Of a DNA stretch of 64,000 bases, positions 21,262-44,235 are shown one piece after another. Made by a program: the position numbers and the translations under genes. Below the pieces are notes generated by a model. That model was not told the origin of the DNA. It saw only the letters and a list, made by a program, of their open reading frames with translations, and made no database searches. Position 1 is the first letter of the stretch. Every line of letters begins with the position of its first letter. The DNA is from Microtetraspora fusca (GTDB taxonomy: Bacteria; Actinomycetota; Actinomycetes; Streptosporangiales; Streptosporangiaceae), in contig NZ_BBYK01000043.1 in NCBI RefSeq assembly GCF_001570365.1, positions 164,677 to 228,676 on the forward strand, given 5' to 3'.

Positions 21262-23306
21262 CGGTCGCTCACCACGATCAGGTTTCCGTGGTCGTCCACG
21301 GTGGCGGTGAAGCCGGGGTGGACGGGCAGGGTCGAGCCGTACTCCTCGACGACGGCCGGGCCCCTGACGACGGCCCCCGCGCCGAGGTCGGCGCGGCGGT
21401 AGATCACGGTGCGCCCCCACGTCTCGTAGAACACCTCGCGGGTCCCCACCGGGCTCGCCTCGCCCACCTGGGCCGGCACGCGGGCGAGCGCGGGCCGCGT
21501 GATCGGGCCGATGCCGGAGACGCGCAGGTTGACCCATTCGACGGCGTGCCGCGGATCGTCGCGGTAGCCGTACCCGTAGAGCTTCTCGTGCTCGGCGTGG
21601 AAGCGCTCGACCACGGCCGCGCACCAGGCGTCGTCGAACGCGCCGCCGGGCGCGGGCACCCGGACCTCGTACGCCTGGCCGTAGTAGCGGAGGTCGGCGC
21701 TGCGGGCGTACACGTGCTCGGCGAACCCCTCACGGTCGAGCGCGTCCGCCGCCTGGGCCTCCAGCTCGGCGTAGATCCCGGCGAGCGCCTCCGGGGCGGG
21801 CGCGCGGGAGACGTGCGTGCGGACGTAGTCGTTCTTGACGTCCACGGTGAGCAGCCCGAACGCGGAGACGTTGCCCGGGTTGGGCGGCACGATCGCGGCG
21901 GGCAGCCCGAGGATGTCGATCAGGCGGCAGGCCAGCAGCGGGCCGGACCCGCCGAAGGCGACCATCGGGAAGTCGCGCACGTCCAGCCCGCGCTTGACCG
22001 TGATCTGCCTGATGGCGTTGGACTGGTTGAAGGCGCTGATCTCCAGGATGCCGGTGGCGCAGCGCTCCGGCGTCAGCCCGAGCTTGCCGGCCAGGGCCTC
22101 GATGCCCGCCCTGGCCGCCGCCACGTCGAGGGGGATCTCGCCGCCGAGCAGGTGCGGGGGCACGCGGCCGAGGAAGACATGGGCGTCGGTGACGGTCACC
22201 TCGGTGCCGCCCCGGCCGTAGCAGAGCGGCCCCGGGTCGGCCCCCGCCGACTTCGGCCCGACCTTCAGCGTCCCCTCCGGGGAGATCCACGCGATCGACC
22301 CGCCGCCCGCGCCCACGGTGACGATGTCGATCATCGGGATCTTGCAGGGGTAGCGGCCGATGCTCCCCTCCGTGGTCAGGGACGGCTCGCCCTCGACGAC
22401 CACGGCGACGTCGGTGGAGGTGCCGCCGCCGTCCAGGGTGATCACGCTGGGACGGCTCGCCGTACCGGCGATCAGTGCGGCGCCGAGCGCGCCCGCCGCG
22501 GGGCCGGATAGGACGGTGGTGATGGGCTGGTGGACCACCTCGGCGGCCGACAGCACGCCGCCGTTGCTCTTCATGACCGAGAACGGCCGGCCGAGCCGGT
22601 CGGACAGGTTCTGGATGTACCGGCGCATGACCGGCTTGACCGCGGCGTCGACCAGCGTGGTCACCGACCGCTCGTACTCCCGGTACTCGCGCAGGACCTC
22701 GCTCGACAGGGACACGACCGCCTCGGGGTGCTCGCGGGCCAGCACGTCCCTCATCCGCAGCTCGTGGACCGGGTCGGCGTACGAGTGGAGGAAGCAGACG
22801 CCGATCGCGGTGACGCCGTGGTCGCGGAACCAGCGCGCCGCCGCCACCGCCTCGTCCTCGTCGAACGGACGGACCTCCCGGCCGAGGTGGTCGAGCCGGC
22901 CGCCCACCGTCTTGACCCGGTGCACCGGGACGATCCTGGGCGGTTTCACCCAGAAGTAGGAGTTGCCGTACCCGTCGGGCACGCTCTGCCGCGCGATCTC
23001 CAGCAGGAACTCGAAGCCCTCGGTGGTGACGAACCCGAGGTGAGCGGTGCCGTCGGCGCGGTCCTCGAGGAGTTGGTTGGTCGCGACGGTGGTGCCGTGG
23101 ACGATGCCGGAGACACCGTCCAGCCCACCCTCCGGGGAATCGGCGTGCAGCTCCAGCACTTTGTGAACCCCTGCCATGAAACCGTCGGCGGGGTTGGCGG
23201 GAGTCGAGGGAGTCTTGGTCGTGACGATCGTGCCGGTGTGCTCGTCGACCAGAACCACGTCGGTGAACGTGCCCCCGGTGTCGACCCCGATGCGGACGCT
23301 AGGCAT
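21258..23306 (-). CDS. hyuA: Hydantoinase A / oxoprolinase family protein
   Basis: The 682-residue A subunit carries the actin-like ATPase fold of the family. The N-terminal phosphate loop DTGGTFTDVVLVDE is at residues 9-22. The HGTTVATNQLLE segment and the second phosphate motif ITLDGGGTSTDVAVV follow. Family members phosphorylate the lactam or ketone with ATP before ring opening. ATG start at 23306. It is the first gene of the hyuA-hyuB pair. Together with a ring-opening amidohydrolase and carbamoyl-transfer genes elsewhere in the window it suggests cyclic amide catabolism. No transporter or regulator is directly adjacent. Confidence 0.94.
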   Translation of the reverse strand: MPSVRIGVDTGGTFTDVVLVDEHTGTIVTTKTPSTPANPADGFMAGVHKVLELHADSPEGGLDGVSGIVHGTTVATNQLLEDRADGTAHLGFVTTEGFEFLLEIARQSVPDGYGNSYFWVKPPRIVPVHRVKTVGGRLDHLGREVRPFDEDEAVAAARWFRDHGVTAIGVCFLHSYADPVHELRMRDVLAREHPEAVVSLSSEVLREYREYERSVTTLVDAAVKPVMRRYIQNLSDRLGRPFSVMKSNGGVLSAAEVVHQPITTVLSGPAAGALGAALIAGTASRPSVITLDGGGTSTDVAVVVEGEPSLTTEGSIGRYPCKIPMIDIVTVGAGGGSIAWISPEGTLKVGPKSAGADPGPLCYGRGGTEVTVTDAHVFLGRVPPHLLGGEIPLDVAAARAGIEALAGKLGLTPERCATGILEISAFNQSNAIRQITVKRGLDVRDFPMVAFGGSGPLLACRLIDILGLPAAIVPPNPGNVSAFGLLTVDVKNDYVRTHVSRAPAPEALAGIYAELEAQAADALDREGFAEHVYARSADLRYYGQAYEVRVPAPGGAFDDAWCAAVVERFHAEHEKLYGYGYRDDPRHAVEWVNLRVSGIGPITRPALARVPAQVGEASPVGTREVFYETWGRTVIYRRADLGAGAVVRGPAVVEEYGSTLPVHPGFTATVDDHGNLIVVSDR

Positions 23307-23436
23307 GTTCCAGTGTCTACAGACCACCGCCGACGGCGGGAACCGGCGCACTCTGCCGAATAATCCGCCGAATAATCGGCGAATCCTCGTCACCCGCCGG
23401 CCGCCCGGGGCCGACCGGGCGGCCGTCAGAACAGGA

Positions 23437-26599: not shown

Positions 26600-27334
26600 T
26601 CAGCGCCGCTGGCGTCCGAGGACCCACCCGATGACCGCGCTGCCGAGCGCGACCCCGGCGCCCATGCCGAACGCGGCGAGCATCGTCCACGGCGGCACGC
26701 CCGCGCGCTGCGGCCGGCCGGCGACCGCCGCCTCCCGGGTGAACACCCGCCCCACCTCCGGCTGGTACGGCACAGCCGGTGTGGCGCCGACGTCCGCTCC
26801 GGCCTCCGTCCCTGCCCGGTCTCCGGCCACGGCCGCGCCGGTCGCCGCACCCACCGCGACCGGCGCCACCGGCACCGCGAGGGCGGCGGCGGCCCGTCCG
26901 GACAGGAGGTGCTCCTCGACGGCGGTGAAGAACTCGCCCGCGGTCTTCTTCGCGACCGAGCCGAGCATCCGCTGGCCGACTCCGCCGATCATGCCGCCGA
27001 CGACGGCCTCGGCGTCGTAGTCGATCCGGGTGCCTCCCTCGACCTCGCTGAGGCTGATGCGCACGGTGGCGTCGACGGTGCCGGGCGCTCCCTGCCCCCG
27101 GGCCCGCAGGACGAACCGCTCCGGCTCCTGCGGGTCGGAGAGCGCGACCTCGCCCTGGTAGATCCCCTTGATGGAGGCCACCCCGGCGTTCACGGTCATC
27201 TTGTAGACGTCGTCGCCGACGGCCTCCAGCCGCTCACATCCGGGGATCGTGCACACCAGGACGCCCGGATCCCGCAGCGCGGTCCAGACGCGGCCCCGCT
27301 CCACACCGAGCATGGCGCTACCCGTGATCTTCAC
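26600..27334 (-). CDS. CoxG-like SRPBCC-domain protein with C-terminal membrane anchor
   Basis: The N-terminal 150 residues form a carbon-monoxide-dehydrogenase subunit G (CoxG) type START-like domain, seen in KITGSAMLGVERGRVWTAL and in CTIPGCERLEAVGDDVYK. An Ala/Val/Pro-rich linker leads to a C-terminal helix (WTMLAAFGMGAGVALGSAVIGWVL). CoxG proteins help recruit molybdenum hydroxylases to the membrane. A three-subunit hydroxylase of the same superfamily is at 32-36 kb, so a functional link is plausible but not shown. GTG start after GAGGTGAT. Confidence 0.88.
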   Translation of the reverse strand: MKITGSAMLGVERGRVWTALRDPGVLVCTIPGCERLEAVGDDVYKMTVNAGVASIKGIYQGEVALSDPQEPERFVLRARGQGAPGTVDATVRISLSEVEGGTRIDYDAEAVVGGMIGGVGQRMLGSVAKKTAGEFFTAVEEHLLSGRAAAALAVPVAPVAVGAATGAAVAGDRAGTEAGADVGATPAVPYQPEVGRVFTREAAVAGRPQRAGVPPWTMLAAFGMGAGVALGSAVIGWVLGRQRR

Positions 27335-32174: not shown

Positions 32175-34565
32175 TCACCCCGCGAGCCGTAGGCGCAGGG
32201 TGTGCAGGTCGGACGGCGAGATGGGCATCCGATCGATCGGGATGCCCTCGGCGTCCTCGATCGCCGAGGCGATCACGGCGGACACGGGGATCACGCCGGC
32301 CTCGCCCGCGCCCTTGACGCCCAGCGGGTTCAGCGGCGAGGGCGTCTCCAGGTGGGCGGTCTCGATCCGCGGCACCTCGGTCGCGTAGGGCATCAGGAAG
32401 TCCATGAACGAGGCGTTCAGCAACTGGCCGTGCTCGTCGTAGACCATCTTCTCGTAGAGCGCCCCGCCCACTCCCTGGGCGACGCCGCCGTGGATCTGCC
32501 CCTCCACGATCATCGGGTTGATCAGCTTGCCGCAGTCGTGGACGACGGCGTACCTCAAAATCGTGATCTCGGCGGTCTCCGGGTCCGTCTCCACGATCGC
32601 GGCGTGCATCCCGGAGGCGAACGTGGACCTGATCGGCGAGTAGTAGTCCCGCCCCTCCAGGCCCGGCTCCTCGCCCTCGTCCACCGGCGGCCGGTCCGGC
32701 GCGGACGTCCCGGAGAACTGGGTGGCGCGCTTGGTCTCCTCGTCGAACGCGTACCGGAGCGGGTTGGACAGCACGGCCACGGTGGCGAGGGGGATCGACG
32801 CGGACGGCGTCCCGGCGACGTGGACGATCCCGTCGGTGATCTCCAGGTCGCGCGGGTCGGCCTCCAGGGCGTCCGCCGCGATGCGCAGCGCCTTCTCACG
32901 TACCTTCCGGCAGGCGAGCGCGATCGCGTTGCCGCTCATCACCGCGGCGCGGGAGGCGAAGGTCCCGACGGCGTACCCGAAGCGGCGGGTGTCGCCGGTG
33001 ACGACGGACACCCGCTCGATCGGCACGCCCAGCTCGGTGGCCGCGATCTGCGCGAACACGGTCTCGTGGCCCTGCCCCTGCGAGGTCAGGCCGGTCGATA
33101 CGTGGACCCGGCCGTCGGAGGTGACCTGCACGTGGCCGCCCTCGTACGGCCCGACGCCGGTGCCCTCGACGTAGCAGCCGATGCCGATGCCGATCCGGCG
33201 GCCCTCGGCCGCGGCGCGCGCCTTCATCTCGGGGAAGGAGTCCCAGCCGATCAGCTCCTTGAGCATCCGCAGCGACTCGGGGTAGTTCCCGCTGTCGTAG
33301 ACGAGCGGCCGCCCGTCCTGGAAGATCAGGCCCTGGTCGTAGGGGAACTCGTCCGGCCCGATGAAGTTGGCCGCCCGGACCTCGGTCCGGTCCTTCCCGA
33401 GATACGCGGCGACACGGTCCAGCGTCCGCTCCATGCAGAAGACGCCCTGTGGGCGGCCCGCGCCCCGGTACGGCGTGACCTGCACGGTGTTGGTGTAGAT
33501 CGAGGAGAACTCCACCCGGTAGGCCCCGATCTTGTACGGCCCGAGCAGCTGGGTGGAGGTGATGATCGGCACGATGATCCCGTACGGCGTGTACGCGCCG
33601 TGGTCGTGCAGGATGGTCACGTCCAGGCCGAGGACATGGCCCTCGTCGTCGAAGCCGACCCTGACGTGCTGCACCTGGGCCCGCTCGTGGGCCGAGGAGA
33701 CGAAGTGCTCGCGCCGGTCCTCGGTCCACTTGACCTCGCGGCCGAGCGTCCGGGCCGCCCAGGGCACGAGGATCTCCTCCGGCCACGGGTGCACGATCTT
33801 CACGCCGAAGCCGCCGCCGACGTCGGGGGCGATCACCTCGACCTTGGGCAGCGGCAGCCCGAGCTTGGCCGCGACCGCCATCCGCACGCTGGTGGACGTC
33901 TGGGTGGAGGAGTAGACCCGCAGCGACCCGTCGTCGGCGTCCCAGCGTGCGTACACGCCGCGGCCTTCGAGGGGCATGCTCGCGCTGCGCTCGATGTCGA
34001 GCCGGAACTCCAGCCGGTTCGGCGCGGCGTCGATCGCCTCGGCCGCCGACCGGCCCTCCCGTGACGGCACCTCCTGGACCAGGTGCGCGCCGACGTTGCC
34101 GGGCACGTCCTCGTGGACGAGGTGGACGCCCTGCGCCGCCTCCTCCACGCCGACGACCGGCTTGAGGAACTCGTACTCGACCTCGATGAGCGCGCACGCG
34201 TCCTCGGCGAGGTAGCGGTCCGCGGCGACCACCATCACCACGGGCTCGCCGACGTGCCGCACGATGTCCTTGGCCAGCGGGTACGCCGTACGGCCGTGGG
34301 TGAGCGCGGGGTGCGGGATCAGCAGCGGCAGCGGCTCGGCCAGCGCGCCGGGCAGGTCCTCCCAGGTGTAGACGGCGACCAGGCCCTCCACGTCGAGCGC
34401 GGCCGACACGTCGATGTCCTTGATGCGCGCGTGCGCGTGCGGCGACCGGACGAAGGCGGCGGCCAGCGCGCCCGGCCCGAGGTCGTCCAGGTAGCGGCCC
34501 TGGCCGGTGACCAGCCGGGCGTCCTCGCGCCGCTGGACCGGCTCGCCGAAGAGCTTCGTCGTCAC
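32175..34565 (-). CDS. Molybdopterin-binding large subunit of a xanthine dehydrogenase/CODH-family hydroxylase
   Basis: The 796-residue catalytic subunit of a molybdenum hydroxylase. The cofactor-binding signatures are DVGGGFGVK, TSQGQGHETVFAQIA and GVKGAGEAGVIP, the last carrying the catalytic Glu. Residues 365-371 read PYRGAGR, the form II type motif. The CO-oxidising form I motif AYxCSFR is absent, so CO oxidation is unlikely. The substrate is probably a heterocycle or aldehyde. GTG start overlaps the small-subunit stop (GTGA). The gene order is medium-small-large, a complete operon. An NCS2 nucleobase permease lies directly upstream. Confidence 0.94.
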   Translation of the reverse strand: MTTKLFGEPVQRREDARLVTGQGRYLDDLGPGALAAAFVRSPHAHARIKDIDVSAALDVEGLVAVYTWEDLPGALAEPLPLLIPHPALTHGRTAYPLAKDIVRHVGEPVVMVVAADRYLAEDACALIEVEYEFLKPVVGVEEAAQGVHLVHEDVPGNVGAHLVQEVPSREGRSAAEAIDAAPNRLEFRLDIERSASMPLEGRGVYARWDADDGSLRVYSSTQTSTSVRMAVAAKLGLPLPKVEVIAPDVGGGFGVKIVHPWPEEILVPWAARTLGREVKWTEDRREHFVSSAHERAQVQHVRVGFDDEGHVLGLDVTILHDHGAYTPYGIIVPIITSTQLLGPYKIGAYRVEFSSIYTNTVQVTPYRGAGRPQGVFCMERTLDRVAAYLGKDRTEVRAANFIGPDEFPYDQGLIFQDGRPLVYDSGNYPESLRMLKELIGWDSFPEMKARAAAEGRRIGIGIGCYVEGTGVGPYEGGHVQVTSDGRVHVSTGLTSQGQGHETVFAQIAATELGVPIERVSVVTGDTRRFGYAVGTFASRAAVMSGNAIALACRKVREKALRIAADALEADPRDLEITDGIVHVAGTPSASIPLATVAVLSNPLRYAFDEETKRATQFSGTSAPDRPPVDEGEEPGLEGRDYYSPIRSTFASGMHAAIVETDPETAEITILRYAVVHDCGKLINPMIVEGQIHGGVAQGVGGALYEKMVYDEHGQLLNASFMDFLMPYATEVPRIETAHLETPSPLNPLGVKGAGEAGVIPVSAVIASAIEDAEGIPIDRMPISPSDLHTLRLRLAG

Positions 34566-35083
34566 GCCCTGCCCTCTCGATCCCCCGGCCGGACCTGGGT
34601 CTCCGCCTGGATCTCCGCGGCCCGGTGTACGGCCTTGATGATGTTCTGGTAGCCGGTGCACCGGCACAGGTTGCCGGAGACGGCCTCCAGCGCCTCCTCC
34701 TCGGTCGGCGCCGGGTTGTCCCGCAGGAAGGCCGTCACCGTGCAGAGGAAACCGGGGGTGCAGAAGCCGCACTGCAGGCCGTGGCACTCGGTGAACGCGC
34801 GCTGCACGGGAGAGGGCTCGCCGTCCCGCGCCAGGCCCTCCACGGTGGTGATCTCGTGGCCGTCCACCGTCACCGCGAAGGTGAGACAGGACCGTACCGG
34901 CTCGCCGTCGAGCAGGACCGTGCACGCGCCGCAGACGCCGTGCTCGCAGCCCACGTGCGTACCGGTCAGCCCCAGGTCGTGGCGGAGGAAGTCGGAGAGC
35001 AGCCGCCGCGCGGGCACCGCCGCCTCCCGGACCACGCCGTTGACCACGAGGGTGACGAGATGCCGGGTGGTTTCCTCACTCAT
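34562..35083 (-). CDS. Iron-sulfur small subunit of the molybdenum hydroxylase
   Basis: The 173-residue subunit carries two [2Fe-2S] clusters that pass electrons from molybdenum to FAD. The N-terminal cluster ligands are in HVGCEHGVCGACTVLLDG and a following SCL. The C-terminal ligands are in LQCGFCTPGFLC and GNLCRCTGYQNI. The start overlaps the medium-subunit stop by 8 bases and the stop overlaps the large-subunit start, so translation is tightly coupled. Confidence 0.96.
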   Translation of the reverse strand: MSEETTRHLVTLVVNGVVREAAVPARRLLSDFLRHDLGLTGTHVGCEHGVCGACTVLLDGEPVRSCLTFAVTVDGHEITTVEGLARDGEPSPVQRAFTECHGLQCGFCTPGFLCTVTAFLRDNPAPTEEEALEAVSGNLCRCTGYQNIIKAVHRAAEIQAETQVRPGDREGRA

Positions 35084-35957
35084 CGGCGGCCTCCGTTCCC
35101 GCGTTCCGCGCCGCGTCCTTGAGCGCGCGCACGGCCAGCACGCCCGTCAGGTGCCTCCGGTACTCGGCCGTCGCGTGGATGTCCCCGTCGGGGTCGATCC
35201 GGTCCCGTACGGCCGCCGCGACGGCGTCCCAGGGGACGGACGCGGCCGGCCGCCGGTCGCACGCGTCGGACAGGTCGATCACGACCGGCGCCGGACCGAC
35301 GCTCACGCAGGCGACCCGGGCGGCGGCGATCCGCAGGTCCTCGTCGAGGGTGACCAACGCGGCCATCCCCGCCACCGCGTAGTCGCCGTGCCGCCGTGCG
35401 ACCTCCTGGAACGCGGTGCCCGAGCGCGGCGGCGGCGCCGGGAAGAACGCGGACACCGCGAGCTCCCCGGGCTCGACCGCCGACTCCATCGGGCCGGTGA
35501 AGAAGTCGGCCGCCGCGACCTCCCGCTCGCCGCCGAGCCGCGCGAGCCGTACGGAGCCGCCGAGGAGGGCGAGGACGGCGGGCATCTCGGCGGACGGGTC
35601 GGCGTGGACGAGGCTGCCGACCACGGTCCCCCGGTTCCTGATCACCGGGTGCGCGACCAGGGCGAGCGCCTGGCGCAGGAGCGGCAGGACCGCCGCCGCC
35701 TCGGCCGAGCGCTCGACCGCCGCGTGCCGGGCCAGCGCCCCCACGCGCACGCCGCCGGGACGGGCGGCGATCGTGTTCAGCTCGCCGACCCGGTTGATGT
35801 CCACGAGGTGGGACGGCGCGGCCAGCCGCATGTTGAGCAGCGGGATCAGGCTCTGGCCGCCCGCCAGCACCTTGCCGTGCGGCCCGGTCTCGGCCAGGGC
35901 GGCGAGCGCCTCGTCCACCGAGACCGGGGCGTGGTACTCGAACGGAGGCGGCTTCAC
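35076..35957 (-). CDS. FAD-binding medium subunit of the molybdenum hydroxylase
   Basis: The 293-residue subunit receives electrons through FAD. The two FAD-contact motifs are visible as LAGGQSLIPLLNMRL and NRGTVVGSLVHADPSAEMPAVLALLG. The C-terminal CO-dehydrogenase flavoprotein domain follows. GTG start VKPPPFEYHAP, as in relatives. It is the first gene of the three-gene operon, with the permease stop 45 bp upstream on the same strand, so all four may be cotranscribed. Confidence 0.94.
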   Translation of the reverse strand: MKPPPFEYHAPVSVDEALAALAETGPHGKVLAGGQSLIPLLNMRLAAPSHLVDINRVGELNTIAARPGGVRVGALARHAAVERSAEAAAVLPLLRQALALVAHPVIRNRGTVVGSLVHADPSAEMPAVLALLGGSVRLARLGGEREVAAADFFTGPMESAVEPGELAVSAFFPAPPPRSGTAFQEVARRHGDYAVAGMAALVTLDEDLRIAAARVACVSVGPAPVVIDLSDACDRRPAASVPWDAVAAAVRDRIDPDGDIHATAEYRRHLTGVLAVRALKDAARNAGTEAADE

Positions 35958-36002: not shown

Positions 36003-37367
36003 TCAGCTCGCCGCATCCCGCTCGAATCCGATCTCCCCACCGGAGACCTCCTTCCTCGGGCCGTGCGCGATCACACGGAGCAGGTGGTAGCCGCCGAGCA
36101 CCACGATGGTGCCCAGGGCGATGCCGATCAGGCTGAAGTCGCCGACGATCTGGTGGGTGACCGGGCCGATGGCGAGGATGATCCCGGCGCCGATCGGCAC
36201 CATGTTGACCGGGTCGGAGAAGTCCACCCGGTTCTCGATCCAGATCTTCGCGCCCAGCAGGCCGATCATGCCGTACAGGATGACGGTGATGCCGCCGAGC
36301 ACGCCGTCGGGCGTGGCGGCGACCAGCGCGCCGAACTTCGGGATCAGGCCGAACAGGATCGCGATGATCGCCGCGATGTAGTAGGCGGCGGTCGAGTAGA
36401 CCCTCGTGGCCGCCATGACGCCGATGTTCTCCGCGTACGTGGTGGTGGGCGAGCCGCCCACGGAGGTCGCGACGGCCGTGGCGACACCGTCGGCCGCGAC
36501 CGCCCGGCCCATGTACGGGTCGGCGTCCACACCGGTCATCTCGCCCACGGCCTTGACGTGGCCGACGTTCTCCGCGATGAGCGCGATGACGGCGGGCAGC
36601 ACGAGGACGATGGCCGACACCTGGAATGTCGGACCGTGGAAGTCGGGCCAGCCGAACAGATCGGCCTTCCCCACCCGGCTGAAATCAACCCGGAAGTGCG
36701 ACGTGATCTCGCCAGTGGCCGTGGGCGCGGTGATCTTCCCGGCGGTCTGGTCGAGCACCCAAGAGAGGACGAATCCGAAGACGAGCCCGAGCAGGATGGC
36801 GATGCGCCCGAGGAACCCCTTGAAGACCACCAGGAACAGCGCGGTCGCGGCCATTGTCACGAGGGCGACCCAGTGGTCCTTCGGCCAGTAGATGTCGGCG
36901 ACGACGTAGGCCAGGCCGAAGCCGATCAGCATGACCACCGCGCCGGTCACGACCGGCGGGAAGATCTTGTGGATGATCTGCACGCCCAGGTAGTGGATCG
37001 CGACGCCGACCGCCGCGAGGACCAGGCCGGCGACCAGGATCGCGCCGGTGACGGTCGCGCTGTCGCCCTGCGCCGCGCGGATGGCGGCCACGGCGCCGAC
37101 GAAGGACGCGCTGGTGCCCAGGTAGCTGGGGATCTTCCCCTGCACGATGAGCAGGAACAGGATCGTGGAGACACCGGACATCATGATCGCGAGGTTCGCG
37201 TCCAACCCCATGAGCGTGGGGAAGACGAAGGTCGCACCGAACATCGCGATCACGTGCTGGGCACCGAAGCCGACCATGCGCGGCCAGCTCAGCCTCTCGT
37301 TGGGTTTTACGACCTCACCCGGCGGCAGGGTCTTCCCATCGCCATGCAACTTCCAGCCGAAAGCCAT
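36003..37367 (-). CDS. Uracil-xanthine permease (NCS2 family)
   Basis: The 454-residue transporter has about 12-14 helices and imports a nucleobase with protons. NCS2 landmarks are QHVIAMFGATFVFPTLMGLD near the N-terminus, the ENVGHVKAVGEMTG substrate-site segment with its conserved Glu, and SVGGSPTTTYAENIGVMAATRVYS. The ATG at 37367 follows AAAGGGGC. The upstream open frame to 37550 is not family-like. The UraA/RutG-like features favour uracil or xanthine. Its position next to a molybdenum hydroxylase suggests uptake of that enzyme's substrate. Confidence 0.94.
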   Translation of the reverse strand: MAFGWKLHGDGKTLPPGEVVKPNERLSWPRMVGFGAQHVIAMFGATFVFPTLMGLDANLAIMMSGVSTILFLLIVQGKIPSYLGTSASFVGAVAAIRAAQGDSATVTGAILVAGLVLAAVGVAIHYLGVQIIHKIFPPVVTGAVVMLIGFGLAYVVADIYWPKDHWVALVTMAATALFLVVFKGFLGRIAILLGLVFGFVLSWVLDQTAGKITAPTATGEITSHFRVDFSRVGKADLFGWPDFHGPTFQVSAIVLVLPAVIALIAENVGHVKAVGEMTGVDADPYMGRAVAADGVATAVATSVGGSPTTTYAENIGVMAATRVYSTAAYYIAAIIAILFGLIPKFGALVAATPDGVLGGITVILYGMIGLLGAKIWIENRVDFSDPVNMVPIGAGIILAIGPVTHQIVGDFSLIGIALGTIVVLGGYHLLRVIAHGPRKEVSGGEIGFERDAAS

Positions 37368-37657
37368 GCATGCCCCTTTGTTACCTGGGCCGACGTCCGG
37401 TGGCCACCCCGCGGGCATCCCAGCGCGGCATTGCTGTTGCGGGCACATTAGGCCCGAGATTGCGATTACACACGGGCAGCTTGTGCCAAACCAGTGTGGA
37501 TTGACAGCAATCGTATTGCGCACCGGTCCGGGCGGCACGGTGAGCGTCACATCCCCCCGACGCCCGCCCGCTGGACCCTCCCCCCGGGGGAGACTCCAGC
37601 ATGTGCGCCGACGACCGCGTCCATGAGGCGCACTGCCCGGAAGAGAGGACGAATCCC

Positions 37658-38278
37658 ATGAGCACGCCGAAGACCGACTTCAAGAAGGAGTATCGCGAGC
37701 TGTACACGGCCGGGCCGGAGCCGAGGCTCGTGCAGGCGCCCGAGCTGCCCTATCTCATGATCGACGGCGTCGGGGACCCGTCCTCGTCCGGCTACGCCTC
37801 CGCCGTCAAGGCGCTGTACGGCGTGGCGTACGCGATCCGCTTCGCCCTGAAGGGCGCCGGTGTCGTGGAATATCCGGTGATGCCGTTGCAGGGCCTGTGG
37901 TGGGCGGACGAGAAGCCCCCGTCCGGCTTCGTCGCGCACCGGGACCTGTGGCAGTGGACGATGATGATCCTTCAGCCGCCGCAGGCCGACGCGGCGCTGT
38001 TCGACGAGGCGGTCGCGACCGCGCGCAAGAAGAAGCCGTCGTCGCCGATCGACCGGGTGCGGCTGGAGCCCCTGCGTGAGGGGTGGTGCGGCCAGATCCT
38101 GCACGTCGGCCCGTACAGCACCGAGGACGCCACCCTCGAACGGCTGCATGCCTTCCTGGAGGAGGGCGGCCACGCGATCCGCGGCCGCCACCACGAGATC
38201 TACCTGTCGGTGCCGGGCCGCACCGCGCCGGAGAAGATGAAGACGATCATCCGCTATCCCGTCACGCCGGCCGGCTGA
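37658..38278 (+). CDS. GyrI-like small-molecule-binding domain protein
   Basis: A 206-residue soluble protein of the GyrI-like/SOUL-type fold without a DNA-binding domain. Family features are KTDFKKEYRELYTAG at the N-terminus, PYLMIDGVGDP, ALYGVAYAIRF, and the closing GRHHEIYLSVPGR. Such proteins bind small hydrophobic ligands and some hydrolyse cyclopropanoid toxins. ATG start with AGAGGA nine bases upstream. It is divergent from the permease operon with a 290-bp gap holding no other gene. Confidence 0.88.
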   Translation: MSTPKTDFKKEYRELYTAGPEPRLVQAPELPYLMIDGVGDPSSSGYASAVKALYGVAYAIRFALKGAGVVEYPVMPLQGLWWADEKPPSGFVAHRDLWQWTMMILQPPQADAALFDEAVATARKKKPSSPIDRVRLEPLREGWCGQILHVGPYSTEDATLERLHAFLEEGGHAIRGRHHEIYLSVPGRTAPEKMKTIIRYPVTPAG

Positions 38279-38291
38279 GCGGAGCGCCGGT

Positions 38292-38513
38292 TCACTCGCC
38301 CGGGGCGACGACGCGGATCTCGAAGCCCTCCCCGGTGACGACCTGGCCGGCCCGGATCTTGCACGCCTTGCGCAGCTCGACCGCGCCGTCCACCCGGACG
38401 TTCCCCTCGGCGATCAGGTGCTTGGCCGCGCCGCCCGTCTCCGTGACATAGCAGTACTTCAGCAGGTCGCAGAGTGGGATGTACTCGCCGCGCAGCTCGA
38501 ATGTCTCTTTCAC
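38292..38513 (-). CDS. S4-domain RNA-binding protein (YbcJ-like)
   Basis: The 73-residue protein is a single S4-like RNA-binding domain. The pattern IPLCDLLKYCYVTETGGAAKHLIAEGNVRVDG matches the YbcJ/YaaA-type family. It probably binds structured RNA or ribosomal particles. GTG start at 38513. It ends 14 bp from the convergent GyrI-like gene and lies downstream of the PucR-type gene on the same strand. Confidence 0.88.
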   Translation of the reverse strand: MKETFELRGEYIPLCDLLKYCYVTETGGAAKHLIAEGNVRVDGAVELRKACKIRAGQVVTGEGFEIRVVAPGE

Positions 38514-38551: not shown

Positions 38552-40201
38552 TCAGATCCCGCGCATGCGCAGGACGTGCAGCGCCAGCGTCAGGTTGAGC
38601 CGCAGGTGCGCGTCCTCGGTGAAGTTGCCGAGCATCCGCTCCAGCTTCCCGATCCGGTAGCGCAGCGTGTTGTAGTGGAAGTGCAGCCGCCGGGCCGTCT
38701 CCGCGACGTTGAGGTTGGTCTCCAGCAGCACCTGGAGGGTCCGGCGCAGGTCCGCGTTCTCCGCGTCGCCGTCCCCGGCCAGCGACCCGAGCGTCTCGCG
38801 GACGAAGGCGTGCAGCTCCTCGGTGTCGTTCACCAGGGACAGCAGGCGGTACACGCCGAGCTCGTCGAAGTGCGCGACCGCGCCCGCCCCGTGGAGCTGG
38901 CGGCCCACCCGCGCGGCCTTGAGCGCCTGTCCGTACGCGCCGGGGAGCAGGTCCGGTCCCCCGGCGACCCGGCTCAGGCCGGTGGAGAACGTGCAGTCGG
39001 AGACGGCGGCGAGCGCGTCCCTGGCCAGTCGGACGGTGTCCACATCCGCGCCGACGACGGCGACGACCTCGTGCGAGAACCCGGCGACCGCGCCGCGCGG
39101 GTCGAACTTGCGCACGGCGGACTGCCAGGCGGCGAGCATCCGATCCTGGGTGGAGCGCTCCTCCGCGTCCGGGTCGATCTCCGCGACCAGCACGCTGACC
39201 CGGCGCTCCAGGTCCCAGCCGAACGCGCGGGCGCGCTCGGCGACGCGGGTGCCGCCCCTGCCGGTGAGCACGTCCCGCAGGAAGTCCGCGCGGTACTTGC
39301 TCTCGACGGCGGTCACCGCCTCCTGCTTGGTCACGACGAGGGCGGCCACGGTCGCGGCGCGCTCCAGGATGCCGACGTCGCTGGGGGTCAGCGCGCCGGA
39401 GTCGCTGAACGCCACGATCCTGCCGTGGTGGTGGCCGCCCGCCACGACGGGCACCACGGCGTAGTGGCGGTCCGGCGCCATGGTGGCGGCGGCGCGCGGC
39501 CGATCCCGGACCGCCGCGGGCACGGTCCCCGCGGCCGTCGCCGTGCTCTCCACCGCCTGGCAGGTCGCGCGCAGCGTCGCCACCCGCTCGGCGTCGCCGG
39601 CCGTGGCCAGGATGCGGTCCCCGGCGTCCAGTGCCGCGACGGCCACGTCGAGGAGCCCGGCAACCTCCGCCGCGACCTCGCGCATCCCGCCTCCGGCGAG
39701 CACGATCTGGACCAGCGCCCGGTGCGCGTCCTCGGCCCGGGCGAGCAGGCCCGCCTGGCGGTTCAGGATGTCGGTGAGCACCTGGTTGAGGATGTCGTCG
39801 AACCCCACGTCGTTGGGGAGCAGGATCAGCGGGAAGCCCAGCCGGTCGGCCTGCTCGACCATCTCCCCCGGCAGCTCGTCGAGGTACCGGCCCAGCTTGA
39901 TCGCCAGCGCGGCGAGCCCGCGTTCGTCGAGATCGGCCACCAGCCGGTCCAGCGACTGCGGGGTGTTGCGCAGCGGGTAGCCCGTGGTGAGCAGCAGCTC
40001 GTGCGGCTTCACCCAGGCCAGGATGTCGGGCACCTCCATGACGTTGAGGCGCTGCACGATGCGGTCGAGGCCGGATCTCCCGGCGATGAGGCGCGCGTCC
40101 GCGAGGGTCGACACGCCGAGCACCTCCCCGACGGAGACGCCGTGAAGGATGGTTCCTGTGCTGGCCAGCCTCATCGCCGGCGCGGCGGGATCGCTCGTCA
40201 T
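38552..40201 (-). CDS. PucR-family transcriptional regulator
   Basis: A 549-residue PucR-type regulator. The N-terminal PucR domain (about residues 15-140) includes VSVGEVLGVSTLADARLIAG and WVKPHELLLTTGYPLR. A GAF-like middle follows, then a GGDEF-like fold domain with VSVLVAEIDPD. The C-terminal HTH is LETNLNVAETARRLHFHYNTLRYRIGKLE. Family members control purine and ureide catabolism. The ATG at 40201 follows GGAG; an upstream extension is not family-like. It is divergent from the DUF2877-FdrA-DUF1116 operon with a 182-bp operator-containing gap, so it probably controls that operon. Confidence 0.93.
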   Translation of the reverse strand: MTSDPAAPAMRLASTGTILHGVSVGEVLGVSTLADARLIAGRSGLDRIVQRLNVMEVPDILAWVKPHELLLTTGYPLRNTPQSLDRLVADLDERGLAALAIKLGRYLDELPGEMVEQADRLGFPLILLPNDVGFDDILNQVLTDILNRQAGLLARAEDAHRALVQIVLAGGGMREVAAEVAGLLDVAVAALDAGDRILATAGDAERVATLRATCQAVESTATAAGTVPAAVRDRPRAAATMAPDRHYAVVPVVAGGHHHGRIVAFSDSGALTPSDVGILERAATVAALVVTKQEAVTAVESKYRADFLRDVLTGRGGTRVAERARAFGWDLERRVSVLVAEIDPDAEERSTQDRMLAAWQSAVRKFDPRGAVAGFSHEVVAVVGADVDTVRLARDALAAVSDCTFSTGLSRVAGGPDLLPGAYGQALKAARVGRQLHGAGAVAHFDELGVYRLLSLVNDTEELHAFVRETLGSLAGDGDAENADLRRTLQVLLETNLNVAETARRLHFHYNTLRYRIGKLERMLGNFTEDAHLRLNLTLALHVLRMRGI

Positions 40202-40262
40202 CGTGCGCTCCGAGGTAGAGCTTCCAGGGGGATTGGGAGGTCTGTGCGGCTGACGCCGATTG

Positions 40263-40315
40263 TGCCCAACAATCCGACTGTCAGGAAGAGCCAAGCATTT
40301 GGCCTACTGTTGGCA
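40263..40315. promoter_or_regulatory. Inverted repeats between pucR-like gene and DUF2877-fdrA operon
   Basis: An inner dyad gccaa-gcat-ttggc lies at 40290-40303. An outer pair tgcccaaca (40263-40271) and tgttggca (40308-40315) is also inverted. The elements sit in the divergent gap and are plausible operators for the PucR-type regulator. Confidence 0.5.
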
Positions 40316-40383
40316 GCTTTCTCCGTACGGAGCCCGGGGGCGGCGTTCTAGCGTCGGCTCTGACGCGCTATCGGGGAGGTCCG

Positions 40384-41298
40384 TTGACCGTCGACACACG
40401 TCCGAGAGCACGGCGCTCCTTACCCCGCCCCTCGGCAGGCGTGGGAGGACGCACCCAGATCGGCGGAGCCGCCAGCGTCGCGCTCCGCCCGGCGCTCGAA
40501 TCGCCCCGCCGTCCGGCCCGTGTGCTGGCGGCGTTCCCGCTCGCCGTCTACCTGGAGGTCAGGAGCGAGTACGAGCCGCACGTCATCGCCCTCGTCAGCG
40601 GGGAGGCCGCGCGCCTGCCGAACGCGGTGGTGCTCGCGGCGCCGCTCGACCGGCTTCCGCTGGGGGACGAGTGCTGGGTCGGCGAGGGCTCCATCGGCGT
40701 GGGCCGCGTCGGCATCCGGGTGCGCCGCTGGTGGGACCCCGCGCCGCCACTCGGGAGCGCGGAGCCGTCCCGGCTGGCCCGTGCGCTGACGCACCTCGAC
40801 GACATCTGCGACCGCTCCCAGCGCCGGCCCGGCCTGGACATCGCCGGCGCGCCCGGCCTGCTGGCCTCCGGCTGTCTGGCGGGCTCCCTGGTGGACGGCA
40901 TCGTCGCGGCGGAGCGGCTGCTGGGTCTCGGGCCGGGACTGACGCCGAGCGGCGACGACATGCTGTGCGGCCTGCTGGTCGCGCTGCGCCACCTGGGCCT
41001 CGCCGCGGGCGCGCCGCGCGCGGTCTGGCTGGCCGACTGGCTGGCCGCCGCCGTGACGTACGACGCCCGCGCCCGGACGACGCCCATATCGGCCACGCTG
41101 CTGCACTGCGCGGCGCGCGGCCAGGCCGGGTCGGAGGTGCTCGGCGTGCTGCGCGCGGTCGCCGGGCACCAGCCGCTCGACCCCGCGGCGCGCCGCCTGC
41201 TGGGCCTCGGCCACACCTCGGGCGCCGACCTCGCCTGGGGCCTACGGGCCGGGCTGGCCGCCGTCCTCGCGCTGCGGTCATGGCACGGAAGCCGATGA
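40384..41298 (+). CDS. DUF2877 protein (YlbF/AllH-like subunit of a carbamoyltransferase)
   Basis: A 304-residue protein with the DUF2877 signature GLGPGLTPSGDDMLCG at residues 181-196 and a second His-rich end (LLGLGHTSGADLAWG). In E. coli the homologue YlbF (AllH) acts with FdrA and YlbE as oxamate carbamoyltransferase in allantoin fermentation. It is the first gene of the operon. The start is a TTG preceded by GGGGAGG, and no better codon is close. The N-terminal 45 residues are basic and not family-like, so the mature start could be later. Enzyme assignment here is by homology and context. Confidence 0.85.
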   Translation: MTVDTRPRARRSLPRPSAGVGGRTQIGGAASVALRPALESPRRPARVLAAFPLAVYLEVRSEYEPHVIALVSGEAARLPNAVVLAAPLDRLPLGDECWVGEGSIGVGRVGIRVRRWWDPAPPLGSAEPSRLARALTHLDDICDRSQRRPGLDIAGAPGLLASGCLAGSLVDGIVAAERLLGLGPGLTPSGDDMLCGLLVALRHLGLAAGAPRAVWLADWLAAAVTYDARARTTPISATLLHCAARGQAGSEVLGVLRAVAGHQPLDPAARRLLGLGHTSGADLAWGLRAGLAAVLALRSWHGSR

Positions 41299-41342
41299 GG
41301 CCCCCGAACGCAGCGAGCGCAAATAAGCAGGAGGAAGTGTCC

Positions 41343-42758
41343 GTGAATGATCTGGTTGAAGTGCGCGCGGGGGTCTACCACGACTCCGTGAGCCTGATGC
41401 GGGTCAGCCAGGCGCTCGCCGCGCTGCCCGGGGTGAGCGTCGCGATCGTCGCGATGGCCACCGAACTCAACGTCGGCCTGGCCCGGGACGCCGGATTCGC
41501 CGTGCCCGCGACCACACCGGGCGACCTGCTCGTCGCGATCAGGGCCTCCTCGGACGACGCCGTACGGGAGGCCGCGGCCGAGCTGGACCGACGGCTCGCG
41601 GCCCGCGAGGCGGCCGGGACGGCGCGAGGCGAGGACCGGCCGCCGCGCACCACCCGGTCGGCGGCGCGCGCCGCGGCCCGGGGCGCGGCGGGGTCCGGCG
41701 GGGCGACGATCGCCCTGGTCAGCGTCCCTGGGGAGTGCGCCTTCCTGGAGGCGGCCGACGCCGTCGAGGCCGGGCTCTCCGTCATGATCTTCAGCGACAA
41801 CGTGCCCGTCGAGCAGGAGATCCTGCTCAAGGACCGCGCCCGGGAGAAGGGCGTGCTGGTGATGGGACCCGACTGCGGCACCGCTGTGATCGGCGGCGCG
41901 GGGCTCGGCTTCGCCAACGTGCTCCGCCCCGGCCCGGTCGGCGTGGTGGCCGCCAGCGGCACGGGGGCGCAGCAGGTGACGAGCCTGCTCGACCTGGCCG
42001 GCGTGGGCGTCAGCCACCTGCTCGGCGTGGGCGGGCGCGACCTGTCGGCGGAGGTGGGCGGGCGCTCGGCGATCCAGGCGCTGCGGGCGCTCGACGCCGA
42101 TCCGGCGACCGAGCTGATCCTCCTCGTCTCCAAGCCGCCCGCCCCCGAGGCGGCCGACGCCGTACGGGATCTGGGGCTCGGCACGAAGCTGGTCACGGCG
42201 CTGCTCGGGCCGGGGCAGGACGACCTCACGGCCGCCGTGGAGAAGGTCCTCGGCGCGCTCGGCCGCGAGGTGCCGGCCTGGCCCTCCTGGCCCGCGCCGC
42301 CCGGCGCCCCGGGCACGCCGGGATCGGAGTGCCGCGGCCCGCTGCGCGGGCTCTACTCGGGCGGCACGCTGTGCACGGAGGCCGCCGTCATCGCGAGGAG
42401 CGGCGAGTTCACCGACTTCGGCGACGACGCGTACACGCGCGGGCGGGCCCACCCGATGATCGACCCGGCGCTCCGCCTGGAGGCGCTGGACGCCGTCGAG
42501 TCCGGCGTGGTCCTCCTCGACGTGGTGCTGGGCCACGGGGCCGACCCCGACCCGTCCGCGCGGCTGGCGCCGGCGGTGGCGCGGGCGTGCGGGCGCGGCG
42601 TCGCCGTGGTCGTCGCACTCGTCGGCACGGAGGGCGACCCGCAGGGGCTGCACGCCCAGGCGGCCCGGCTGAACGAGGCGGGCGCCGCGGTGTTCACGTC
42701 CAACGCGGCGGCGGCGCGGCACGCCCGTGACCTGGTCGCGGCGCGCGTCCACTCCTGA
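41343..42758 (+). CDS. fdrA: FdrA-family protein (succinyl-CoA synthetase alpha-like)
   Basis: The 471-residue protein belongs to the FdrA family. It has a CoA-binding/ligase fold like the succinyl-CoA synthetase alpha chain: SVPGECAFLEAADAVEAGLSVMIFS, MGPDCGTAVI, and GVVAASGTGAQQVTSLLDLAGVGVSH. The E. coli homologue (AllF) is a subunit of oxamate carbamoyltransferase. An Ala/Arg-rich linker at about residues 85-120 separates the short N-terminal part. The GTG at 41343 is chosen because AGGAGG sits 8 bases upstream; a GTG two codons earlier is too close. Second gene of the operon. Confidence 0.9.
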   Translation: MNDLVEVRAGVYHDSVSLMRVSQALAALPGVSVAIVAMATELNVGLARDAGFAVPATTPGDLLVAIRASSDDAVREAAAELDRRLAAREAAGTARGEDRPPRTTRSAARAAARGAAGSGGATIALVSVPGECAFLEAADAVEAGLSVMIFSDNVPVEQEILLKDRAREKGVLVMGPDCGTAVIGGAGLGFANVLRPGPVGVVAASGTGAQQVTSLLDLAGVGVSHLLGVGGRDLSAEVGGRSAIQALRALDADPATELILLVSKPPAPEAADAVRDLGLGTKLVTALLGPGQDDLTAAVEKVLGALGREVPAWPSWPAPPGAPGTPGSECRGPLRGLYSGGTLCTEAAVIARSGEFTDFGDDAYTRGRAHPMIDPALRLEALDAVESGVVLLDVVLGHGADPDPSARLAPAVARACGRGVAVVVALVGTEGDPQGLHAQAARLNEAGAAVFTSNAAAARHARDLVAARVHS

Positions 42759-42840
42759 CGCCGCAGGCGTCCCAGAACGATCCACGACAGAGCGGCCACG
42801 GCCGATGTCCGCGATCCGGACCGACCCCGAAGGGAGAGCG

Positions 42841-44235
42841 ATGAACCCGACGACGCTGTCCATGCTGAGTCGCGAGCCTCATGTGATCACAGCCGGGACC
42901 GCGCTGCTCGGCGAGGCGCTGGACCAGCAGGCCGTGGCCAGGACCGACGTGGACTGGCGGCCGCCCGTCCCCGGCACCGCCGCCGCGCTGGCCGCGGCGC
43001 TCGCCGACCCGCGCAGGGAGCGGGCCAACGCCACCGCCGTCGGCCGGATGGTGTCCGCCCGGCCCCGGCTCGTCGGCGTACGGCCGGCCCGGGAGGTGCT
43101 GGGCCTGGAGCCGGGCACATTCCTGCACGCGGGGCCGCCGATCTCGTGGGAACGCGCCTCGGGGCCGATGCGGGGGGCGCTGATCGGCGCGATGCTCTTC
43201 GAGGGGCTCGCCTCCTCCCCCGAGGACGCCGAGGAGCGGCTCGCCGCCGGGTCCGGCATCACGCTGGACTCCTGCCACCACCATCGGACGGTCGGCCCGA
43301 TGGCCGGCGTGGTGAGCCCGTCGATGTGGATGCTGGAGGTCGCCGACGCCGAGCACGGCGGCGCCGCCTACTGCTCGCTCAACGAGGGGCTGGGCAAGGT
43401 CCTGCGCTACGGCGCGTACGGACCGGAGGTCGTCGAGCGGCTGCGCTGGATGGGCGACGTGCTCGGACCGGCGCTCCAGGCGGCGCTCGCGCTGAGCGGG
43501 CCGCTCGACCTGCGCGCCCTGATCGCGCAGGCCCTGCAGATGGGCGACGAGCTCCACAACCGCAACCGCGCGGCCACGTCGCTGATGGTGCGGGAGCTCG
43601 CGCCCGCCGTGGTGGAGGCCGCTCCCGGGCACGCCGCCGAGGTGTTGCGATTTATCAATGGGAACGATCATTTCTTCCTGAACGCCGGAATGGCGGCGGC
43701 GAAAGTGAGCGCGGACGCCGCCAGAGATGTGCCCGGCTCCAGCCTCGTGGTGGCGATGGCCCGCAATGGGACCGATTTCGGAATCCAGGTTTCCGGGCTC
43801 GGGGACCGCTGGTTCACCGGTCCCGCCGAGGTTCCCGACGGCCTCTACCTCGGCGCGTACGGCCCCGGCGACGCCAATCCGGACATCGGGGACTCGACGA
43901 TCACGGAGACGACGGGGCTCGGCGGCTTCGCCATGGCCGCCGCCCCGGCGATCGTGCGCTTCGTCGGCGGGGACGTGGCGGACGCCGTCGCGGCGACGAC
44001 CTCGATGTACGAGATCACGTTGGCGGAGCATCCGGCGTACCAGATCCCGGGGCTCGGGTTCCGCGGCACGCCGGTGGGCATCGACGTCACCCTCGTCGCC
44101 CGCACCGGCACGCTACCGGTCGTCAACACGGGGATCGCGGGCCGGGTGGCGGGAACAGGCCAGGTCGGAGCGGGTCTGGTCAGCCCTCCGATGGAGGCGT
44201 TCACGGCGGCGCTGGCGGCCCTGACCGACGCATGA
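42841..44235 (+). CDS. DUF1116 protein (YlbE/AllG-like subunit)
   Basis: A 464-residue DUF1116 protein. Family blocks are VDWRPPVPG near residue 40, ISWERASGPMRGALIGAMLFEGLA, NRAATSLMVRELAPAV, and FLNAGMAAAKVSADAA. The last third has ARNGTDFGIQVSGLGDRWFTGPA. The E. coli homologue YlbE (AllG) is part of the oxamate carbamoyltransferase complex. The ATG at 42841 follows AAGGGAGAG. It is the third gene of the DUF2877-fdrA-DUF1116 set, 82 bp after fdrA. The usual fourth gene, carbamate kinase, is missing here but present at 3070-4005. Confidence 0.9.
   Translation: MNPTTLSMLSREPHVITAGTALLGEALDQQAVARTDVDWRPPVPGTAAALAAALADPRRERANATAVGRMVSARPRLVGVRPAREVLGLEPGTFLHAGPPISWERASGPMRGALIGAMLFEGLASSPEDAEERLAAGSGITLDSCHHHRTVGPMAGVVSPSMWMLEVADAEHGGAAYCSLNEGLGKVLRYGAYGPEVVERLRWMGDVLGPALQAALALSGPLDLRALIAQALQMGDELHNRNRAATSLMVRELAPAVVEAAPGHAAEVLRFINGNDHFFLNAGMAAAKVSADAARDVPGSSLVVAMARNGTDFGIQVSGLGDRWFTGPAEVPDGLYLGAYGPGDANPDIGDSTITETTGLGGFAMAAAPAIVRFVGGDVADAVAATTSMYEITLAEHPAYQIPGLGFRGTPVGIDVTLVARTGTLPVVNTGIAGRVAGTGQVGAGLVSPPMEAFTAALAALTDA

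Follow-up and report, generated by a model that had tools for sequence, protein, structure and literature searches.

An AllFGH operon of Microtetraspora fusca marks one end of a conserved actinomycete gene cluster, probably for oxidative uracil breakdown

The window analysed here is a stretch of 64 kb from the 9.0 Mb genome of Microtetraspora fusca (108 contigs; contig NZ_BBYK01000043.1), in which the genes for AllH (DUF2877), AllF (FdrA) and AllG (DUF1116), three subunits of a transcarbamylase-like complex, lie beside a divergent PucR-family regulator gene at positions 38552-44235, where Pfam searches confirmed all four genes as a first-pass annotation had placed them. We found that this operon is not isolated, and that it shares a conserved cluster with a carbamate kinase-barbiturase pair and with genes lying between the two, the existence of which is near certain. 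The three genes probably represent one end of an actinomycete cluster for oxidative uracil breakdown, in which the energy would partly be kept as ATP. It appears very likely that AllFGH acts in barbiturate catabolism, and fairly likely that the reaction it catalyses is the phosphorolysis of ureidomalonate. All reactions assigned below, above all the substrates of AllFGH and of a molybdenum (Mo) hydroxylase, are predictions from sequence and gene linkage. The argument turns on the following genes.

42841-44235, plus strand: AllG (DUF1116) subunit of the transcarbamylase-like complex (PF06545, E 1e-97; 3CLQ, E 5e-111)
41343-42758, plus strand: AllF (FdrA) subunit (3DMY 'Protein fdrA', E 2e-65)
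40384-41298, plus strand: AllH (DUF2877) subunit (PF11392, E 2e-27; TTG start after GGGGAGG)
3070-4005, minus strand: carbamate kinase (PF00696; 1E19 carbamate kinase, E 4e-70)
1763-2869, minus strand: predicted barbiturase, ring opener of the AtzD/TrzD family (PF09663, E 1e-149; 5HWE Barbiturase, E 8e-177)

AllG (PF06545), AllH (PF11392) and an FdrA-type AllF are all present and adjacent, and by its genes AllFGH is thus a member of the oxamate-type transcarbamylase family with a predicted carbamoyl phosphate-forming activity. Identity to the E. coli K-12 subunits amounts to 38% for AllF (504 columns), 47% for AllG (410) and 35% for AllH (128). The genome carries one AllG match at E<=0.001, and the closest AllG among the matches listed is that of Microtetraspora malaysiensis (98%). 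The AllF start was refined to the GTG at 41343, with AGGAGG 8 bases before it, in a frame (40260-42758) that encodes a Ligase_CoA/FdrA-type protein according to Pfam, and the AllG start to the ATG at 42841, inside the open reading frame (ORF) 42727-44235; the AllH start region is partially conserved among aligned control-region sequences. According to excerpts of a published study, purified E. coli AllFGH is an oxamate transcarbamylase that couples oxamate with carbamoyl phosphate and thus runs the cleavage of oxalurate backwards (PMC11326118), and excerpts of a 2025 paper assign the allFGH genes of nitrifiers to oxalurate (PMC12625717).

Co-occurrence was determined in 296 genomes of the class, which are related by descent, a kinship effect that collapsing to genera or families reduces without removing. 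The association of barbiturase-family, AllFGH and kinase genes in actinomycetes, which the first-pass annotation had proposed as a check, was indeed observed: the genes are linked, with AllG and the ring opener together in 61 genomes, AllG alone in 11 and the ring opener alone in 6 (AllG in 72/296, ring opener in 67/296; Fisher 1.6e-44). At the genus level both were found in 30 of 115 genera, with AllG alone in 8 and the ring opener alone in 6 (p 1.3e-14), and at the level of 46 family labels the corresponding counts were 14, 4 and 2 (p 1.2e-6). AllG, the ring opener and the Mo hydroxylase are all present in 59 genomes from 28 genera and 12 family labels. AllG and the ring opener share one contig in 37 of the 61 genomes and lie 18-45 kb apart in 30 of these 37, the tightest being separated by 18-19 kb; in the other 7 the distance ranges from 90 kb to 1.7 Mb.

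The gene order was compared at two scales. Among 80 named loci (the best 80 of at least 563, with 10 kb flanks that end before some genes), which we take from their genus names to be nearly all Streptosporangiaceae, the family being shown for a few, AllH, AllF, AllG and PucR each gave a match in 76-80, against 65-69 for the permease and the subunits of the Mo enzyme. In addition, 21 clusters were mapped, comprising 19 of the other 29 genomes with a distance of at most 45 kb, the window itself and an Embleya record; these were picked for short distances and hence form no random sample, and the maps are based on tblastn because ORF calling from G+C position misplaces some frames. The shared order, AllG-AllF-AllH, PucR, permease, FAD subunit, Mo large subunit, CoxG, amide hydrolase, HyuA, HyuB, CoA-transferase plus carboxyltransferase, kinase and ring opener, is largely kept in the 21 clusters with local changes, and in the window its parts are spread out by other genes such as cydAB. 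PucR, the FAD and Mo subunits, AllF, AllG and the ring opener were found in 21/21 mapped clusters, the kinase in 20/21 (not G241), CoxG in 20/21 (not G156) and the permease, at 59% identity or more, in 19/21 (G102 and G019 having only distant ones), while AllH, a weak query, was matched in 17/21 and the 2Fe-2S gene was mostly masked by the overlap filter. The CoA-transferase was present in 13/21 and the carboxyltransferase in 12/21.

The ring opener of the window shares 75% identity with 5HWE Barbiturase, the closest structure, whereas cyanuric acid hydrolase structures reach only E 3e-96. Excerpts of the literature state that five residues separate barbiturase from cyanuric acid hydrolase, that Group VI holds the characterised barbiturase and that its signature is Asn195, His321, Lys325, Val345 and Ser/Ala346 in AtzD numbering (PMC3758960); the barbiturase subgroup is further described, again in excerpt, as having Gln in place of Arg188 in Azorhizobium cyanuric acid hydrolase numbering (PMC4051656). 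Upon alignment to AtzD (4BVQ), the window ring opener displays N-H-K-V-A, the barbiturase signature. The barbiturase pattern was found in 47/54 ring-opener rows, corresponding after removal of repeats to 37 genomes of the class, the window included, plus Embleya; this covers 41 of the 67 ring-opener genomes of the class, 37 of the 41 showing the pattern. The 7 rows without it are less than 50% identical to the window protein and come from G031, G093 (twice), G100, G122 and two plasmids. Of the 6 genomes with a ring opener and no AllG, four have non-barbiturase patterns, and G206 and G014 remain barbiturase-type. The NCBIfam name of the window protein, cyanuric acid amidohydrolase (NF052395, 475 bits, cut-off 360), looks wrong because of the barbiturase signature and the proximity to 5HWE, and we predict that the protein is a barbiturase that hydrolyses barbiturate.

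In a first AllG tree of 56 rows, covering 34 of the 61 genomes with AllG plus ring opener, the AllGs of barbiturase genomes split off at a branch with 100/100 support; as this tree covered only part of the 61, the remaining 27 were added and the tree was rebuilt to 84 rows. Here, a single clade of 67 rows (support 100/97) contains Embleya together with 60 of the 61 genomes, the branches outside this clade being long. The sole row in the clade from a genome without ring opener belongs to G108, a metagenome-assembled genome (MAG) that is 80% complete. Outside the clade lie the other 10 actinomycete AllGs from genomes lacking a ring opener, E. coli AllG and YahG, and the Klebsiella, E. coli and Peptoclostridium plasmid AllGs. 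The 56-row alignment contains 66 near-invariant positions (at most 2 exceptions) and 9 positions peculiar to the clade. A second type of AllG, 38% identical to that of the window, is found in G051 (contig C314) and in its relative G068 (contig C4), which has one AllG of each kind; both are MAGs of family f9, and this type groups with the AllGs of three genomes that lack a ring opener (G027, G212 and G220).

The first-pass annotation had described the operon as lacking its own carbamate kinase. This is misleading, the kinase beside the barbiturase being part of the cluster, yet the pairing itself had been correctly noted: at E<=1e-30 the genome gives no second carbamate kinase match, and about 200 bases separate the kinase gene from that of the PF09663 protein. 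The kinase exceeds the cut-off of the NF009007 carbamate-kinase subfamily (296 bits; cut-off 266), falls below those of the arcC equivalog TIGR00746 (322 of 358 bits), NF009008 and NF006926, and has 1E19 as its best solved match. Kinases at least 55% identical to it occur in 58 genomes, 57 of which have AllG and the ring opener (the exception being G244). The kinase gene mostly adjoins that of the ring opener; in G007 and G221 it lies on the AllG contig, the ring opener being found on another.

Between the two ends of the cluster lie genes for a permease and a three-subunit Mo hydroxylase with a CoxG-type protein.

36003-37550, minus strand: NCS2 permease of the uracil type (RutG/UraA-like); start probably downstream of the ORF start
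35076-35957, minus strand: Mo hydroxylase FAD subunit (PF00941, E 2e-44; PF03450)
34562-35083, minus strand: Mo hydroxylase 2Fe-2S subunit (NF041020, E 8e-62, and related models, all under their cut-offs)
32175-34562, minus strand: Mo hydroxylase large subunit, candidate uracil (thymine) dehydrogenase (NF040766)
26600-27334, minus strand: CoxG-type protein, probably accessory to the Mo enzyme (PF06240, E 8e-22)

The permease is nearer to UraA and RutG than to purine permeases, with E 3e-54 for E. coli UraA and 1.5e-14 for a uric acid-xanthine permease among structures; RutG is its best NCBIfam match (E 2e-105, 353 bits, under the 759-bit cut-off), and neither the RutG nor the uracil-permease cut-off is reached. 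Between permease and PucR, the window (37601-38513) contains a GyrI-like gene and a small S4-domain gene, matched in 2/80 and 53/80 loci, respectively. The homology of the Mo large subunit begins at ORF residue 122, and its nearest structures are quinoline 2-oxidoreductase (1T3Q, E 4e-136) and 6-hydroxypseudooxynicotine dehydrogenase, followed by CO dehydrogenases; the best xanthine dehydrogenase chain reaches only E 2e-45. It scores 1528 bits against NF040766 (cut-off 950), a model that NCBIfam names 'aerobic carbon-monoxide dehydrogenase large subunit, grp5' (CODH_aero_grp5). AYXCSFR is the active-site motif of form I aerobic CO dehydrogenase; in the window subunit YRGAGRP is present and AYXCSFR absent. 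NF040766 is over its cut-off in 62 genomes of the class, 61 of which have the ring opener, so that the CO dehydrogenase name is probably wrong for the group. The conversion of uracil to barbiturate requires hydroxylation of a ring carbon adjoining nitrogen. Based on this chemistry and on the N-heterocycle hydroxylase relatives, uracil dehydrogenase is the likeliest identity of the Mo hydroxylase, an assignment that we regard as reasonably probable.

The remaining genes of the cluster lie towards its kinase-barbiturase end.

21258-23393, minus strand: HyuA, hydantoinase A/oxoprolinase family (PF01968/PF05378)
19342-21198, minus strand: HyuB, hydantoinase B family (PF02538, E 2e-135; homology from ORF residue 143)
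17276-18532, minus strand: CoA-transferase family III, possibly forming malonyl-CoA (PF02515, E 1e-119)
15855-17276, minus strand: carboxyltransferase-type protein, possibly for malonyl-CoA decarboxylation (70% to an L152 protein that has PF01039/PF03255)
13960-14769, plus strand: CN_hydrolase family, weakly assigned candidate malonamate amidase (PF00795, E 3e-48)

All 7 clusters mapped from the window's own family, the window among them, carry a CN_hydrolase gene near that of the carboxyltransferase. These genes suggest a model in which the permease would import uracil, with PucR sensing the substrate, and the Mo hydroxylase would hydroxylate uracil at C6 to barbiturate, the ring of which would then be opened by barbiturase to ureidomalonate. 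Ureidomalonate (H2N-CO-NH-CO-CH2-COOH) is oxalurate plus one CH2, so that its phosphorolysis by AllFGH would yield carbamoyl phosphate and malonamate, not oxamate. From carbamoyl phosphate and ADP the carbamate kinase would generate ATP, CO2 and NH3; an amide hydrolase would release the last nitrogen from malonamate, a product with which the cluster amide hydrolases fit, and the CoA-transferase and carboxyltransferase would channel malonate into acyl-CoA metabolism. The complete reading, namely a full energy-conserving oxidative pyrimidine pathway in at least 12 family labels, with a uracil/thymine dehydrogenase as Mo hydroxylase, an AllFGH clade acting as ureidomalonate (malonamate) transcarbamylase in place of ureidomalonase and one ATP per ring, might hold or fail with about equal likelihood.

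Several observations weigh against this reading. As reported in excerpts of the literature, ureidomalonase hydrolyses ureidomalonate, yielding malonate and urea (PMC3758960). HyuAB occur in 20/21 mapped clusters and yet have no step in the proposed pathway. G206, a genome that is 100% complete, has PucR, the permease, the Mo enzyme and barbiturase with no AllG genome-wide, which implies that the product of ring opening can take a different route. The G206 stretches examined gave no match to HyuAB or the CoA-transferase, no obvious AllFGH replacement was seen among 10 neighbouring ORFs (Pfam; 3/10 without family), and wider flanks yielded no match with cluster proteins as queries. The lack of a cluster-type kinase in G206 fits a kinase serving AllFGH. 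Similarly, barbiturase and Mo enzyme without AllG were seen in G014 (72% complete). G266 carries a reduced cluster (C35:60000-90000) made up of genes for PucR, the permease, the Mo hydroxylase, CoxG, HyuAB, an amidase and a CoA-transferase-like protein, with no ring opener and no AllG match in the genome, so that HyuAB may act on a Mo-enzyme product by itself. Among the 61 genomes with both genes, the ring-opener match of G023 is a 25-residue piece at a contig end, the only AllG found in G051 (93% complete, 430 contigs) lies in the other group of the tree, G131 and G241 have only distant carbamate kinases (41-45%), and G200 and G209 gave no carbamate kinase match in a search whose first look scores few candidates. 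Finally, uricase, present in 122/296 genomes, occurs in 38/72 AllG genomes (one-sided p 0.016) and in 43/67 ring-opener genomes (p 1.5e-5), and by co-occurrence alone a purine link would therefore be possible.

These points bear on four other explanations. A cluster amidase or CN_hydrolase might hydrolyse ureidomalonate to malonate and urea, leaving AllFGH to take another ureido acid, for example via HyuAB. An amidase (6) or CN_hydrolase (8) does adjoin the Mo-CoxG genes in 14/21 mapped clusters (G241 has such a gene as well as the CN_hydrolase near the carboxyltransferase, and G030 shows none of these), the CN_hydrolase family includes beta-ureidopropionase, and both the unexplained HyuAB and the gene content of G266, with Mo enzyme, HyuAB and amidase in the absence of ring opener and AllG, would find a place in such a scheme. 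We nevertheless consider it unlikely, as AllG tracks the ring opener far tighter than uricase, the sole comparison run, the cluster kinase tracks the genomes with AllG plus ring opener, and the Embleya stretch of 38 kb keeps AllFGH, the carbamate kinase and barbiturase without HyuAB. A further explanation, that AllFGH is an E. coli-like oxamate transcarbamylase for allantoin-derived oxalurate, encoded apart from the purine genes, draws on the same three subunits at 35-47% identity to E. coli, on a uricase operon in the genome and on the enrichment of uricase, which is slight with AllG and clear with the ring opener. The first-pass annotation had reported no allantoin enzymes, which stands for the window (none among 40 window ORF queries, some overlapping and not including every ORF), but not for the genome: on contig C39, a uricase gene lies with genes for an OHCU decarboxylase, two amidohydrolases, one with a sub-cut-off allantoinase-domain match, a glycerate kinase and a xylose-isomerase-like protein, also beside Mo-enzyme-like small subunits. 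An allantoin operon using the AllFGH genes, which that annotation regarded as decisive against another substrate, was not found, no AllFGH match being present in 19.5 kb of C39 around the uricase operon, and AllFGH shows no linkage to allantoin genes. Since the AllG-uricase link is weak and the purine operon separate, the allantoin role was rejected as the main interpretation; 21/59 genomes with AllG, ring opener and Mo hydroxylase lack a uricase match, the barbiturase-linked AllGs form a clade apart from E. coli AllG, and this role appears improbable.

The two other explanations concern the partners of AllFGH. Were the Mo hydroxylase an aerobic CO dehydrogenase, the linkage to barbiturase would be incidental; its NF040766 score and the CO dehydrogenases that follow the quinoline and 6-hydroxypseudooxynicotine enzymes among its structural matches agree with this, but the presence of the ring opener in 61/62 NF040766 genomes, the missing AYXCSFR motif and a nearest structure that is an N-heterocycle hydroxylase make it highly improbable. 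The slimmest chance is given to a cyanuric acid hydrolase as ring opener, with AllFGH splitting biuret or carboxybiuret from triazines, as would be in line with the NF052395 name and with a Klebsiella plasmid on which a ring opener of cyanuric acid signature lies beside FdrA, DUF1116, carbamate kinase and atzF genes. The window signature is N-H-K-V-A, not R-T-R-G-G, and matches Group VI barbiturases as given in excerpts of PMC3758960, in agreement with the 75% identity to 5HWE; a triazine role is disfavoured for the window. The substrate switch put forward in the first-pass annotation is thus strongly supported by co-occurrence, gene order, the AllG clade and the signature in so far as AllFGH would serve barbiturase chemistry (ureidomalonate), and its triazine or biuret version is disfavoured.

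The regulator gene and the intergenic stretch that separates it from AllH were also analysed.

38552-40201, minus strand: PucR-family regulator (PF07905, GGDEF_2, HTH_30)
40256-40335, no strand: divergent PucR-AllH control region with putative PucR operator(s) (conserved blocks)

The PucR ORF spans 38552-40294 (Pfam PucR, E 3e-36), with a better start at Met 40201. Strongly conserved blocks were observed in the control region over 78 aligned sequences (77 loci plus the window), among them TGTCAGGAAGAGCCAA and the 10-base inverted repeat TCCGTACGGA, whereas for the 15-base inverted repeat ATTGTGCCCAACAAT of the window conservation is limited to the first half. The control region likely holds one or more PucR operators, and the earlier description of the operon as PucR-controlled agrees with the divergent adjacency and with the conservation of this region. 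Both TGTCAGGAAGAGCCAA and TCCGTACGGA occur exactly once in the window, other sites being off by 3-4 bases (for TCCGTACGGA, by 1), and a window scan revealed no convincing copy of the PucR-AllH motifs upstream of HyuA or of the kinase-barbiturase genes. With exact motifs only once in the window, the motifs give no regulatory proof that the scattered parts form one unit, and a regulon common to these parts was rejected, no exact copy being found near the other parts.

Compared with known systems, the cluster resembles the E. coli allFGHK operon in its three homologous subunits and in having a carbamate kinase (AllK in E. coli) in the same gene set. It differs from it in that its partners are barbiturase, Mo hydroxylase, a uracil-type permease and PucR, that the kinase lies beside barbiturase instead of AllH, that its AllG belongs to another clade and that the predicted substrate is ureidomalonate, not oxalurate. 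With the Rhodococcus oxidative pyrimidine pathway (uracil oxidation, barbiturase, ureidomalonase) it shares the Group VI barbiturase signature, as described in excerpts of PMC3758960, and the predicted order of reactions, whereas an energy-saving phosphorolysis is predicted here instead of hydrolysis to urea and malonate, and the window offers gene candidates for the dehydrogenase. The ring opener of the AtzD/AtzE/AtzF cyanuric acid pathway is of the same family, in contrast to which the window signature is barbiturase-type. The E. coli yahEFG-yahI and plasmid fdrA operons are likewise DUF2877-FdrA-DUF1116-carbamate kinase sets, but the stretches examined show neither a ring opener nor a Mo hydroxylase. 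In E. coli K-12, yahE-yahF-yahG-yahI (L182:3926-9116) constitutes a second such set, beside the amidohydrolase gene yahJ and with an AllG type outside the barbiturase clade; sets on an E. coli plasmid (L186:3819-11029) and in Peptoclostridium (L185:3595-12357) are accompanied by genes for a cysteine hydrolase and for permeases of the cytosine or xanthine type, and a plasmid search gave an AllG match in 96 Escherichia records. On the Klebsiella quasipneumoniae plasmid NZ_CP084773.1 (L183:7726-24161), the gene of an RTRGG ring opener is flanked by those for DUF1116 and carbamate kinase. Genes for FdrA, DUF2877 and a BMP-type ABC transporter, together with atzF, are found nearby, and an IS3 transposase gene lies inside the set; this arrangement points to another form of AllFGH, for triazines or biuret.

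We know of no gene for the first enzyme of the oxidative pyrimidine pathway. According to excerpts of the literature, this pathway was described in a few bacteria in the 1950s (PMC3758960), and a literature search, whose coverage leaves most subscription journals outside, returned no paper linking AllFGH to barbiturase among the matches listed. The cluster supplies candidate genes for each step of the pathway and predicts that ATP is gained from pyrimidine breakage. Moreover, the findings suggest that AllFGH may be a general ureido-acid phosphorolase whose partners include several ring openers, and that a group of proteins annotated as CO dehydrogenase may in fact hydroxylate pyrimidines, a point of importance wherever CO oxidation is deduced from such names.

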